Source of the DNA: Kosmotoga olearia TBF 19.5.1
GTDB lineage: Bacteria > Thermotogota > Thermotogae > Petrotogales > Kosmotogaceae
Direction: 5' to 3'
NCBI RefSeq assembly: GCF_000023325.1
Contig: NC_012785.1
Coordinates: 1,426,001-1,490,000, forward strand
Length of the DNA: 64,000 bases
In this document: piece after piece, positions 211-35,385 of the stretch
Numbering within the stretch: the stretch's first letter is position 1
How the letters are laid out: each line of letters starts with the position of its first letter
Notes under the pieces: model-generated
What the model saw: only the letters and a program-made list of their open reading frames with translations
What the model was told of the DNA's origin: nothing
The model's database searches: none
Made by a program: the position numbers and the translations under genes

Positions 211-297
211 TCCTGCTTCGCAGGGGGAATAACGTGAAACGAACCGCAAGCGGTTGTTGCGAACCACTTCGTGGTTGTTATGAACTGCTTTGCAGTT
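211..297. repeat. 21-base mini-hairpin array (island 1)
   Basis: Four consecutive units, each an inverted repeat with a short spacer: TCCTGC-TTC-GCAGG, AACCGC-AA-GCGGTT (242), AACCAC-TTC-GTGGTT (262) and AACTGC-TTT-GCAGTT (283). Unit starts are 20-21 bases apart. The arms differ between units but remain self-complementary. This is the first of at least eight islands of the family. An extra 7-bp inverted repeat (ATTCCGA / TCGGAAT) lies just upstream at about 185-208. Confidence 0.8.
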
Positions 298-1043: not shown

Positions 1044-1345
1044 ATAGAGATTCGAGATCCGCTGTGCGCTGCGAAGCAGCGGCAGTGCTGGGCTTTGCCC
1101 AGGCCATGCGTGACTTCGTTACGGCTTTGCGCAACTACGTTGCGGCTAAGTGCTCTAGAAACGTTGTCGGTTGTGGGTTGTACGTCTCTTTTTTTAAACT
1201 CTAGACACGATTTCTCTGTTGTCAGTTGATAGTTGTTAGTTTTTGAACTTTCTATATCCTAGATCCCAGACACTATACCCGATCTTTATCTAAACTCCAG
1301 TCTCCTACATCTATCCTCGCTTTTAATTTCTAATCCCAGATCTCG
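1044..1345. repeat. Repeat island 2: 21-base array plus shared ~120-bp module
   Basis: Units start at 1067, 1088, 1109 and 1130, an exact 21-base period: CGCTGC-GAA-GCAGCG, CTGGGC-TTT-GCCCAG, CGTGAC-TTC-GTTACG and CGCAAC-TAC-GTTGCG. To the right (about 1160-1345) is a module whose reverse complement reappears on the plus strand at about 23,628-23,735. Shared segments include GGGATTAGAAATTAAA, GGAGACTGGA, TTTAGATAAAGATC and AGAGACGTACAAC. No credible gene is seen between 1009 and 1364. Confidence 0.75.
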
Positions 1346-3171: not shown

Positions 3172-3600
3172 TGCTGAGAGCTAAGAAAGCTGCTACGCGC
3201 TGCGGGGCAGCGGATTCGAATCCCTTCGGGATTGTCACGAACTGCTTCGCAGTTGAAAAAACATTGGGCGCTTGCGAGGCTGTCAGCTGATGAAGCAACG
3301 CTTGCGAGGTTGAGGCTTGCGGACGCTGATAAAAGCCGAGAATCCGAGAATCCGAGAATTCGAGAGTCCGAGAAAAAACATGACGCTTGCGATAAAAAAC
3401 ACGAGAGTCAGAGAGGGCCGCTACGCGGCGGAAGTACTGAGCAGCGCTCAGGAGGCTCACGACGTTGACGCTCACGAGGTTGAGGCTTGCGGACGCTGAT
3501 GAAAGCCGAGAAACCGAGAGTCCAAGACGCTTGCGGGGCTATGCGCTGCTTCGCAGCGGCTATGCGCAACTTCGTTGCGGCTAAGTATCTTTTAGAGAGC
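3172..3600. repeat. Repeat island 3: 21-base units and CCGAGAAT tandem motifs
   Basis: Mini-hairpins AATCCC-TTC-GGGATT (3219) and AACTGC-TTC-GCAGTT (3240) are 21 bases apart. GGCCGC-TAC-GCGGCG (3416) and CTGAGC-AGC-GCTCAG (3437) are also 21 apart. Between them are degenerate units (GAGGCTTGCGGACGCTGAT) and short tandem CCGAGAATC motifs. It includes an unoccupied copy of the IS110 insertion site, GAGAGTCC-GA-GAA at 3362-3374. Frames on both strands stay open because 21 is a multiple of three, but they have no ribosome binding sites and are low-complexity, so I call no gene in 3088-3756. Confidence 0.8.
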
Positions 3601-12776: not shown

Positions 12777-12922
12777 GAGAGTCCGAGAATTCGAGAGGGC
12801 CGCTACGCGGTGGAAGTGCTGAGCTGCGCTCAGGAGGCTCACGACGTTGACGCTCACGAGGTTGAGGCTTGCAGACGCTGATAAAAGCCGAGAATCCGAG
12901 ATCCGAGAATCCGAGAGTCCGA
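12777..12922. repeat. Repeat island 4, left part (interrupted by IS110)
   Basis: Contains GGCCGC-TAC-GCGGTG (12,798) and CTGAGC-TGC-GCTCAG (12,819), 21 bases apart, then CACGACGTTGACGCT / CACGAGGTTGAGGCT tandem copies and CCGAGAATCCGAG motifs. It ends at ...GAGAGTCCGA, where the IS110 element is inserted; the same repeat resumes at 14,433. A second GAGAGTCC-GA-GAA site lies at 12,777-12,789. No gene is present between the hup start and the transposase start. Confidence 0.8.
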
Positions 12923-13095: not shown

Positions 13096-13124
13096 ACTGC
13101 ACAATGTTTTTTGGAGGAATCAGT

Positions 13125-14417
13125 ATGGATGTTGTGGGAATTGACTGGTCGTGGAATTTTCACACCTGCTATTCTATCGAACAGGATAAGGTTTTTAAGA
13201 TCAAAGATGGTATAGCGGGGTATGAGAAGCTTCTGAAAACGGTATCAAAAGACGCTGTTTTCGTTATTGAGGAGAGTTTCAATCGTCTGGGAGATTTCTT
13301 GTTGTCCAGAGGGAAAGAGGTTTATCTCCTGCCACCGAAAAGGTCAAAGGAAGCCAGAGGCTATCATTCGAACGGCGTGAAGACAGATTCAACAGATGCC
13401 AGGTGTATCGCCCTTACCTACAAAGAACACCCGGAATATTGTATTAAGGCGACACATGACGAACTGGGTATGCTTTTCAGGGAATTGTTGAGGCATTACA
13501 GGTACTATACCGACATGGTTGCAAGACTTAAGAACAAACTTCAAAACGAACTTCATAATTATTTTCCTGAATATGCTAGGGTGATGGGTAGTTCTTGGAC
13601 AGATTGTGACGGGAAGATATTCCTGCTCACCATATGCCCGGATATAACCATGCTCAGGAAGATATCTGACAAGGAGATAAATAGACATTTCCAAGCGAAT
13701 CATCTACGCTACACATCCTCATTGAAAAGAAAGGTCAAAGAACTCAGGGAAAAAGCCGTTGATTGGGGCATGTCAAAATACACCAGGGACATGATCGCGA
13801 ATGTTGCCACACAACTTCTGGAAGCAAAAAGAGAGAAAAAGAAAATAACAAAAGAGATGGAGAAAGAACTACGTAAATCGAAATACAACATAATACTGAC
13901 GCTCCCGGGTGTTGGAGTAGCTACAGGAGTAGCATTAGTAACAGCATTTCTTACACACGAATTCAAAAATTACAGGGATTTCCAGAAGTATTGTGGAACT
14001 ATGCCAATAGTATCCCAGAGTGGTAATTTTAGCGTGTGCAGGATGAGGAAAAACTGTGACAAGAAACTCAGAGGCATTCTCCATATGATGGCGATAAACG
14101 CGAAGAAATGCGGAGCATGGATGAAAGGCTACTATGACAAGAAGATAAATAAAGAGGGCAAGAAACCATCTCTTGCCCTCAGAGCATTGGCAAACATCCT
14201 CGTCAAGATAGCCTTCGCCATGCTAAGAAACCTAAAAGCCTACGATGAGGAACTCTTCCTTTCCTCGCGTGGGAATAGGAGTCCTCGGTTAAATTATACA
14301 ACAAGAAATAGCATACCGGGGACTAAAAAAATGAAGAAAGAAAAGTTATCCCTGCCTGTCTCTGTTGCTCAAACCAACTGCCATTTGGGAGCAGTTTCAG
14401 GTAGTCTGTCTCCTTGA
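13125..14417 (+). CDS. IS110-family transposase (bridge-RNA-type recombinase)
   Basis: A 430-residue recombinase. The N-terminal RuvC-like DEDD domain shows GIDWSWNFH (first Asp), VFVIEES (Glu) and KTDSTDARCIA (last two Asp). A charged coiled region follows (about residues 110-260). The C-terminal Transposase_20 domain starts at ILTLPGVGVATGVALVTAF and contains CGTMPIVSQSGN, where IS110 proteins carry the nucleophilic serine. Length is normal and there is no frameshift. The ATG at 13,125 has GGAGG eight bases upstream and is preferred to an ATG seven codons earlier. The stop overlaps the base pairs of the right-end TTGACA. Predicted to work with the RNA encoded directly upstream. Confidence 0.95.
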   Translation: MDVVGIDWSWNFHTCYSIEQDKVFKIKDGIAGYEKLLKTVSKDAVFVIEESFNRLGDFLLSRGKEVYLLPPKRSKEARGYHSNGVKTDSTDARCIALTYKEHPEYCIKATHDELGMLFRELLRHYRYYTDMVARLKNKLQNELHNYFPEYARVMGSSWTDCDGKIFLLTICPDITMLRKISDKEINRHFQANHLRYTSSLKRKVKELREKAVDWGMSKYTRDMIANVATQLLEAKREKKKITKEMEKELRKSKYNIILTLPGVGVATGVALVTAFLTHEFKNYRDFQKYCGTMPIVSQSGNFSVCRMRKNCDKKLRGILHMMAINAKKCGAWMKGYYDKKINKEGKKPSLALRALANILVKIAFAMLRNLKAYDEELFLSSRGNRSPRLNYTTRNSIPGTKKMKKEKLSLPVSVAQTNCHLGAVSGSLSP

Positions 14418-14432: not shown

Positions 14433-14898
14433 GAGAAAAAACATGACGCTTGCGACAAAAAAACACGAGAATCCGAGATCTGAGAACCGAGAGAGCTGCC
14501 TTTGCAGCGGGTAAGCACGCTTCGCGTGGCTACACTACGAAAGCAGGGATTCTCGAATTCTAGGGTCTCGGTTATTGATCGCGTCAGGAATAACGGTCTT
14601 TTGTCTGTGGGCTCTTATTTTAAGCAATGTCAACTGCGAAGCAGTTCGAAACAACTCCGAAGGAGTTCGTATCACCGGTGAAGCCGGTCGTAACAATCCC
14701 GAAGGGATTCGTATCCGCTGCAAAGCAGCCCTTTCGCTTTTTGATTTTTACGTACAACGCACAACGTACAACCAACAACGGGTTTTATCGCCGCGCAGCG
14801 GTTCGCGTCGCTCCATCAGCTGACAGCGTTGCAAGCCTCAGTTGTGCATTGGTTACCGGTTCTCGGATCTCGAACACCGGATCTCGGATTCTCGGTTT
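14433..14898. repeat. Repeat island 4/5: IS110 right flank and five-unit 21-base array
   Basis: After the resumed host repeat, the clearest array starts at 14,632 and continues at 14,653, 14,674, 14,695 and 14,716, an exact 21-base period: AACTGC-GAA-GCAGTT, AACTCC-GAA-GGAGTT, ACCGGT-GAA-GCCGGT, AATCCC-GAA-GGGATT, CGCTGC-AAA-GCAGCC. Linkers are CGAAAC, CGTATC or CGTAAC. Further right are GTACAAC direct repeats, a segment shared with island 7 (CAGCTGACAGCGTTGCAAGCC reads in the opposite sense there) and TCTCGGATCTCG motifs. Open frames here encode heptapeptide-like repeats (NSEGVRI, NPEGIRI) without ribosome binding sites, so I call no gene. Confidence 0.85.
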
Positions 14899-23344: not shown

Positions 23345-23740
23345 ACAATAGATACTCGCGAGGCGGAAGTGCTGGACTACGTCCAGGAGGCTCACGACGT
23401 TGACGCTCACGAGGTTGAGGCTTGCGGACGCTGATAAAAGCCGAGAATCCGAGATCCGAGAATCCGAGAATTCGAGAGTCCGAGAAAAAACATGACGCTT
23501 GCGATAAAAAACACGAGAATCCGAGAGGGCCGCTACGCGGCGGAAGTGCTGAGCTGCGCTCAGGAGGCTCACGACGTTGACGCTTGCAGACGCTGATAAA
23601 AAGCCGAGAACCGAGAACCGGGATTCGAGATCCGGGATTAGAAATTAAATGCGAGATTGGATGTTGGAGACTGGATTTTAGATAAAGATCTGGTCTAGGG
23701 TTTAGAAAAAGAGACGTACAACGTACAACCAAAACGAGAA
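23345..23740. repeat. Repeat island 6 with empty IS110 site and ~120-bp module
   Basis: Two tandem copies of the GGCCGC-TAC-GCGGCG / CTGAGC-TGC-GCTCAG / CACGACGTTGACGCT module (partial at 23,355, full at about 23,526). Between them is CCGAGAATCCGAGATCC sequence and an unoccupied IS110 target, GAGAGTCC-GA-GAA at 23,474-23,486, followed by AAAAACATGACGCTTGCG exactly as right of the IS. The segment 23,628-23,735 is the reverse-complement partner of the module at 1190-1345. The remaining 23,741-23,885 shows no convincing gene. Confidence 0.82.
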
Positions 23741-31917: not shown

Positions 31918-32135
31918 TCGAGAACGGAGAATCCGAGAACTGAGAGGGCCGCTACGCGGCGGAAGTGCTGGACTACGTCCAGGAGGCTCACGACGTTGAC
32001 GCTCACGAGGTTGAGGCTTGCAGACGCTGATTAGAAGCCGAGAATCGAGATAGCCGCTGCGCGGCGCTCCGAATCCCTTCGGGATTGTTACGACCGGCTG
32101 CGCCGGTGTTACGAACTCCTGTGGAGTTGCCTCCG
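31918..32135. repeat. Repeat island 7, left of the IS3 element
   Basis: GGCCGC-TAC-GCGGCG and CTGGAC-TAC-GTCCAG units, then CACGACGTTGACGCT copies. A three-unit array follows at exact 21-base spacing: AATCCC-TTC-GGGATT (32,072), ACCGGC-TGC-GCCGGT (32,093) and AACTCC-TGT-GGAGTT (32,114). The IS3 element starts directly after the last unit. No gene is seen between the mutase start and the IS. Confidence 0.82.
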
Positions 32136-34889: not shown

Positions 34890-35385
34890 CGTTGTAGGTT
34901 GTACGTAAAAATCGAGAACCGAGAGCCGATAGCTGCTGCGCAGCCGAGGCTTGCAACGCTGTCAGCTGGTAGAGCGACGCTTGCGAGGCTGAGGCTTGCT
35001 ACGCTGTCAAATAAAGTAACGCGAACCGCTGCACGATTCAAAAAACCGTCATTATGGAAATGTTTTATCGAGAATCTGGTCTTCTTAAGTACGAGATCCT
35101 GAATCAAGTTCAGGATGACAGTCCCTGTTTTCAAGGTGTGCTTACCGGTTCTCGGACTCTTGGTTTGGACTCTCGACTTTTTTCGAGTAACTTACAACTC
35201 ACAACCGACAACGTCCCTTACATCTGCCGCAGGCACGTATCACCAACGTAGTTGGTCGAGCAACTGCGCAGCAGTTCGCAGCAACCACGAAGTGGTTCGC
35301 AACAACTCCGCAGGAGTTCGCAACACTGGCGAATCCAGTCGTACCTGTTCTCGCCTTCTCGAATCTCGGATCTCGATTGGGGTTG
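34890..35385. repeat. Repeat island 8 with five-unit 21-base array
   Basis: The right part is an array at 35,242, 35,262, 35,283, 35,304 and 35,325: ACCAAC-GTA-GTTGGT, AACTGC-GCA-GCAGTT, AACCAC-GAA-GTGGTT, AACTCC-GCA-GGAGTT, ACTGGC-GAA-TCCAGT. The left part holds GAGGCTTGCAACGCTGTCAG-type modules shared with island 5 in reverse. The perfect inverted repeat ATCCTGAA-TCAAG-TTCAGGAT lies at 35,095-35,115. No gene is evident in 34,885-35,472. Confidence 0.85.

Follow-up and report, generated by a model that had tools for sequence, protein, structure and literature searches.

Why should a tandem repeat change its sequence from one unit to the next and yet keep its base pairing? The question is raised by a short array in a 64,000-nucleotide stretch of the Kosmotoga olearia TBF 19.5.1 chromosome (positions 1,426,001–1,490,000; the window, whose coordinates are used below unless the K. 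olearia genome is named), where successive units have different arms, each followed after a three-base loop by its own complement or nearly so. A preliminary description of this DNA had offered two answers, selection for structure or a copying mechanism that rewrites palindromes, and had proposed as checks a structural search of the whole genome, a comparison of the covariation with that of shuffled arms and an examination of orthologous loci.

The array itself ( Table 1 ) keeps the 21-bp period first described for it, with all five units at the positions then given. Complementarity of the arms, which had been claimed for every unit, extends to all six pairs in three of the five, but unit 3 has a T.G and unit 5 a C.C opposition. 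Similarly, the GAA spacer is present in units 1 to 4 but is replaced by AAA in the fifth (CGCTGC-aaa-GCAGCC), whose outer mismatch reduces it to a 5-bp stem. The same design was said to recur at seven other places in the window. At 1067, 3219, 32072 and 35242 this is exactly so, but at 211, 3416 and 12798 there are hairpins of 4–5 bp that lie at most a few bases off. The spacers reported (GAA, TTC, TAC, GTA, GCA and TGC) do occur, but they are all one motif, GNA, read from either strand. Perfect 6-3-6 hairpins number 57 in the window versus 18 expected, with most other loop lengths nearer to expectation, and a pattern of loop and linker bases that ignores the arms has eight matches there versus 0.12 in shuffled sequences.

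Table 1. Hairpin arrays and cassettes of the window (loops in lower case; letters a to h denote recurring arms).
Feature	Position	Strand	Basis or remark
Unit 1 hairpin AACTGC-gaa-GCAGTT (letter a), 6/6 pairs	14632..14646	+	sequence
Unit 2 hairpin AACTCC-gaa-GGAGTT (letter c), 6/6 pairs	14653..14667	+	sequence
Unit 3 hairpin ACCGGT-gaa-GCCGGT (letter f), T.G mismatch at closing pair	14674..14688	+	sequence
Unit 4 hairpin AATCCC-gaa-GGGATT (letter h), 6/6 pairs	14695..14709	+	sequence
Terminal hairpin GCTGC-aaa-GCAGC, 5-bp stem	14716..14730	+	sequence
Four-unit array	14632..14715	+	covariance model, 104.7 bits
Array ACCAAC, AACTGC, AACCAC, AACTCC, ACTGGC(gaa)TCCAGT	35242..35345	+	covariance model, sequence
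Array AACTCC, ACCGGC, AATCCC, CGCCGC	32052..32134	-	covariance model, sequence
Array AACTGC, AATCCC, CGCTGC	3173..3254	-	covariance model, sequence
Array AACTGC-aaa, AACCAC-gaa, plus one more hairpin, degenerate	226..297	-	covariance model, sequence
Related 21-bp array, linker CATAGC: CGCAAC-gaa, CGCTGC-gaa	3524..3579	-	covariance model, sequence
Related array CGCAAC-gta, CGTAAC-gaa, CTGGGC-aaa, then CGCTGC (GNA loop on + strand)	1067..1144	-	sequence
Two-hairpin cassette GCCGC-gta-GCGGC; CTGAGC/GCTCAG with non-GNA loop	3416..3452	-	similar cassette at 12798-12834
Two-hairpin cassette CTGAGC-gca-GCTCAG and CGCCGC-gta-GCGGCC	23528..23563	-	sequence
Two-hairpin cassette CTGGAC-gta-GTCCAG and CGCCGC-gta-GCGGCC	31947..31982	-	sequence

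Other repeats and mobile genes share the window with these hairpins. Tandem degenerate 7- to 8-mers (CCGAGAAT/CCGAGAT; 3336–3374, 12888–12922, 23441–23486 and 14860–14898) often flank the arrays, while a second type of 7-mer, ACGTACAACGCACA, is found at 14750–14780 and has matches in relatives too. The cassette GCTCACGACGTTGACGCTCACGAGGTTGAGGCTTGC is present in four copies (3455, 12837, 23390 and 31986), each beside a two-hairpin cassette, and a gene for an IS110-family (RNA-guided) transposase lies between two repeat blocks (13104–14417). Both from 32131 onwards and at K. olearia 573863, a hairpin array is apparently followed at once by the same IS3-type element, so that the arrays, or the edges of arrays, may serve as sites of insertion.

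The array described in the note belongs to a non-coding repeat of the Kosmotogaceae that is dispersed in many copies between genes. In the genome-wide search, blastn with the window array detected 57 places in K. olearia, and matched relatives only within the same family; a covariance model built from 28 arrays detected at least 111. A search for the loop and linker bases with the arms left free gave 121 matches in the genome versus a single control match. Copies are scattered along most of the chromosome, and sister genera have them too; they are short palindromes in many intergenic places, the next open reading frame being at a median distance of about 215 bp on each side. Among the matches listed, 32 of 110 fall between 1.28 and 1.46 Mb, where 8.7 would be expected. 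This zone (K. olearia 1.280–1.462 Mb, with 3.7 times the average density of arrays) also contains both of the RAYT genes considered below.

Arrays extracted by their loop and linker bases from about 249 kb of stretches around the matches have a common 21-bp unit: a 6-base arm, a loop of the form RNA (R, purine), the second 6-base arm and the 6-base linker CGNRNC. The units are repeated head to tail on one strand, and the loop is mostly GNA and sometimes ANA (GAA 169, GCA 66, GTA 30, AAA 18, ACA 7 and GGA 4 among the extracted units). The arms come from an alphabet of about eight recurring letters which, with very few exceptions, appear in the order AACTGC, AACCAC, AACTCC, AACTCT or AACTCA, ACCGGC or ACTGGC, AATCCC. 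Such a nearly fixed order implies that a single ordered composite underlies the arrays, which are copies of it lacking some of its units. A GNA loop is again present in related arrays with the linkers CATAGC and CTTACC.

The pairing of the arms is strongly conserved across these copies. In an alignment of 28 four-unit arrays, 98.5% of the cells are paired, a figure biased upwards by the choice of units with at least five pairs, and 19 of the 24 pairs have undergone two-sided changes; the cleaner, arm-blind set of units has all six pairs in 132 of 155 cases. The covariation score of the alignment is 0.460, versus 0.137 with shuffled arms and at most 0.088 with slid ones, and none of 500 shuffles did as well. 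Within a single letter, the non-consensus share is about 2% in the arms (a value limited to about 17% by the assignment rule of at most two arm mismatches), but 36% at the loop N and 37–40% at the linker N. Since the free sites have changed and the arms have not, the copies must be old enough to have drifted and the arms must be constrained. Selection for structure, the first of the two original answers, is thus supported by the covariation, by the fully paired units and by the contrast between arms and free sites.

With respect to the relatives of K. olearia, the covariance model found arrays of the Kosmotoga type in seven genomes of the same family (G006 has 19, G002 16, G008 six, G004 four, and G003, G007 and G009 one each) and in none of 24 genomes outside it. 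An arm-blind three-unit pattern has at least 120 matching stretches in GTDB genomes; among the 123 matches in 80 loci listed, none has more than 13 of 18 pairs, which gives these the look of coding or tandem repeats with a high GC content. The relatives of genus g4, which we infer to be Mesotoga, have an analogue of their own with the linker ACTGGC, hairpins of which lie around RAYT genes. The pattern CGAAG-N(3-5)-ACTGGC gave 43–113 matches in six of the eight g4 genomes searched (versus 2–7 control matches) and was not enriched in G009, G013 or Kosmotoga. The arrays are found in G012 (L280–L296) and G011 (L297–L299), and also in G003, G007, G010 and G016. Segments between two ACTGGC linkers, picked by the linker alone from stretches found with this pattern, are mostly perfect hairpins with GNA loops, periods of 17–23 bp and very different arms of 4–7 bp. 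It is therefore the architecture that has been kept between the genera, while sequence and linker differ. In a further type of Mesotoga array (L292, L285 and L286) the loops are larger (CGCCGA-tgatct-TCGGCG) and the linkers resemble CATCACTTC or CATTGCGTC.

This sharing of architecture raises the possibility, which we regard as tenable though not as the better bet, that the repeats of the Kosmotogaceae are selected simply as strings of ultra-stable GNA mini-hairpins in DNA, with at least two lineage-specific families (CGNRNC and ACTGGC) having nothing but their architecture in common and with DNA hairpin formation as either a function or a transposition signal.

Is the folded strand DNA or RNA? 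Covariation is compatible with any folded strand, and the arrays could act as strings of hairpins in untranslated regions or small RNAs, as protein-binding sites, stabilisers of mRNA or transcription terminators, with selection on the RNA fold. Two arrays do fold better than shuffled versions as RNA (z −2.2 to −3.0); for the window array, however, the DNA fold stands out more (z = −4.2 versus −3.0). Near the arrays, 221 of 293 three-base loops read GNA on one strand, where about 49 would do so by chance, and four-base GNNA loops are weakly enriched (17 versus 9). A GNA loop with a free middle base is the signature of the DNA mini-hairpins of the exceptionally stable GNA/GNNA class, in which d(GCGAAGC) has a Tm of 78 °C (PMC4686876). 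Because C-GNA-G is such an exceptionally stable structure in DNA, we consider DNA the likelier target. Nor do the surroundings suggest an mRNA element: relative to flanking tandem genes, 23 arrays have the same orientation and 16 the opposite one, which is no clear bias, and 19 lie between divergent genes. At the gathering thresholds of Rfam 15 the window yielded only a tRNA, and the array did not reach any threshold. One-sided mismatches on the GNA strand are G.T in 20 cases versus A.C in 11, but these represent few independent events and the difference is not clear. Altogether, an RNA function seems to us unlikely.

That a small fixed set of palindromes was spread by ordinary duplication, with no selection on the pairing at present, would account for the small alphabet, for its fixed order and for near-identical copies such as those at K. 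olearia 1320167 and 1334506. The preliminary description had itself named a small fixed set of arms copied between loci, lacking independent paired changes, as the finding that would tell against it. The arms have indeed turned out to be mostly such a set, but paired changes exist both between letters and within slots, and the doubly changed pairs of the alignment show how far letters differ in this way. Moreover, neutral ageing should affect all positions alike, but the arms are more than ten times better conserved than the N of linker or loop. We therefore think plain duplication improbable.

The second of the original answers, that one arm is rewritten from the other by template switching within the hairpin, would keep the pairing without selection. 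Quasi-palindrome correction of this kind is generally known among bacteria, and most copies are perfectly paired. However, rewriting alone should leave the two arms to change in step as fast as the free sites, whereas they are at about 2% and the free sites at about 37%. In 53 nearest-neighbour pairs of arrays, the free linker sites differ by 18.5% and the 1014 pair cells contain 33 one-sided but only 14 two-sided arm changes; the latter (1.4%) correspond to the neutral-squared expectation if pairing is required (about 1.1%, 0.185 squared over three). A stepwise path is also visible, from AACTGC/GCAGTT by way of the T.G intermediate AACTGC/GCGGTT, present at several loci, to AACCGC/GCGGTT. Finally, the comparison of orthologues, made on a single array in three Mesotoga genomes, found decay of the pairs: of 72 pair cells, 11 differ on one side and four on both, and some stems are broken. 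Persistent one-sided intermediates, double changes at the neutral-squared level and the Mesotoga decay together favour an active pool in which the fold is under selection, with decay of stranded copies, and leave very little to be said for rewriting. A coding role for the arrays, as 7-residue protein repeats, has a period of seven codons, one frame open in 82 of 90 arrays and ORFs of at least 80 aa overlapping 55 of the 90 on its side, but it can be rejected as scarcely credible, since ORFs overlap the arrays on both strands, several other frames are almost equally open, changes at the loop N would be non-synonymous in the frame that is most open, and the terminal hairpins are displaced by 1–2 bases.

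If the fold is selected in an active pool, what keeps the pool active? In K. olearia there are two genes for Y1 transposases of the size of a RAYT, near genome positions 1,341,980 and 1,355,579, whose products match Y1_Tnp (PF01797) and score 67–68 bits with the RAYT family NF047646 (within an overall range of 67–72 bits), below its curated cut-off of 80. By length and C-terminal extension they seem to resemble RAYT subclasses 2.1/2.3, which have been reported without identifiable REP flanks (PMC6006769). The 3' flanks of both genes match an array-flank repeat known from dozens of places, and repeats are dense there. An array starts about 115 bp downstream of one gene, which could be chance, the arrays being so common. 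In the Mesotoga genomes G003 and G007, the only array of the Kosmotoga type adjoins a 33-aa remnant of a RAYT C-terminus, 82% identical to the K. pacifica RAYT. Across 17 genomes of the family, Y1_Tnp and arrays co-occur (7/9 versus 1/8; Fisher p = 0.015, ignoring relatedness); for the RAYT-like subset alone, p = 0.057 (again ignoring relatedness). Arrays but not this RAYT are present in G004 and G008, and the RAYT but no Kosmotoga-type arrays in G010 and G016. RAYT-type (Y1/HUH) transposases may thus mobilise the Kosmotoga repeats, a link of moderate strength drawn from genomic context, which does not extend to the Mesotoga analogue. For that analogue a RAYT as sole cause is ruled out: G011 and G012 have ACTGGC arrays but no Y1_Tnp at all, so that these arrays can exist at present without that transposase.

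Our preferred reading, to which we would give a probability of about 0.5, is a dispersed REP-like repeat of the Kosmotogaceae with a folded single strand, likely DNA, under constraint, and with spread of whole units, probably by way of a RAYT acting in trans. The constrained form would most likely be a hairpin in transiently single-stranded DNA, or a cruciform. K. olearia is a thermophile with a growth range of 20–79 °C and an optimum at 65 °C (PMC5674127); C-GNA-G hairpins could remain folded close to the temperatures at which it grows. Arrays would spread as whole units, perhaps mobilised by the RAYT-type Y1 (HUH) transposase, and copies that no longer fold might cease to give new ones; pairing would then be kept in the active pool and lost in stranded copies. 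If this is true, the C-GNA-G mini-hairpin has an abundant natural use in organisms that grow near its melting point, a RAYT subclass that has been described as lacking a substrate gains a candidate one, and a bacterial dispersed repeat offers a clean case of covariation in which selection can be told from palindrome rewriting.

How do these arrays compare with known systems? The earlier statement that no named family has this design was too strong, since they are REP-like repeats, although we have not found their architecture described: a literature search turned up the CGTC-3 REPs of K. olearia but nothing on these arrays. With the REP, BIME and REPIN elements and their RAYTs (TnpA-REP) they share more than 100 short intergenic palindromes, a folded strand that matters, stem variants that keep their complementarity and, less surely, a RAYT-type gene alongside. 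They differ in having GNA triloops and short 6-bp stems, in forming head-to-tail strings of different mini-hairpins at 21-bp steps rather than the single or inverted palindromes of REPs and BIMEs/REPINs, and in a RAYT that apparently belongs to a type described as lacking REPs. The GTAG tag is absent; neither this tetranucleotide nor CGTC is found at the foot of the stem among the linkers listed (consensus CGNRNC). The CGTC-3 REPs of K. olearia and M. prima have 9-bp stems, loops of about five bases and a CGTC tag, and K. olearia also has tyrosine transposases without flanking CGTC (PMC3733652); the CGTC-3 REPs are palindromic repeats of the same genomes, yet an element separate from the arrays. 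The RepRanger candidates of Mesotoga prima are single palindromes, and in the available text of PMC12306157 neither array architecture nor GNA loop nor covariation is mentioned; some single array hairpins may be among them. In CRISPR arrays identical repeats alternate with unique spacers, whereas here the arms vary and the linkers are of 6 bp. Given the lack of either tag, the arrays are best filed as REP-like repeats of a new architecture, outside the GTAG and CGTC families. With the GNA/GNNA DNA mini-hairpins such as d(GCGAAGC) they have both loop and closing pair in common, and GCGAAGC itself stands within AACTGCGAAGCAGTT; those mini-hairpins are known mainly from in vitro chemistry, whereas the Kosmotoga arrays are a genomic repeat class built from them.
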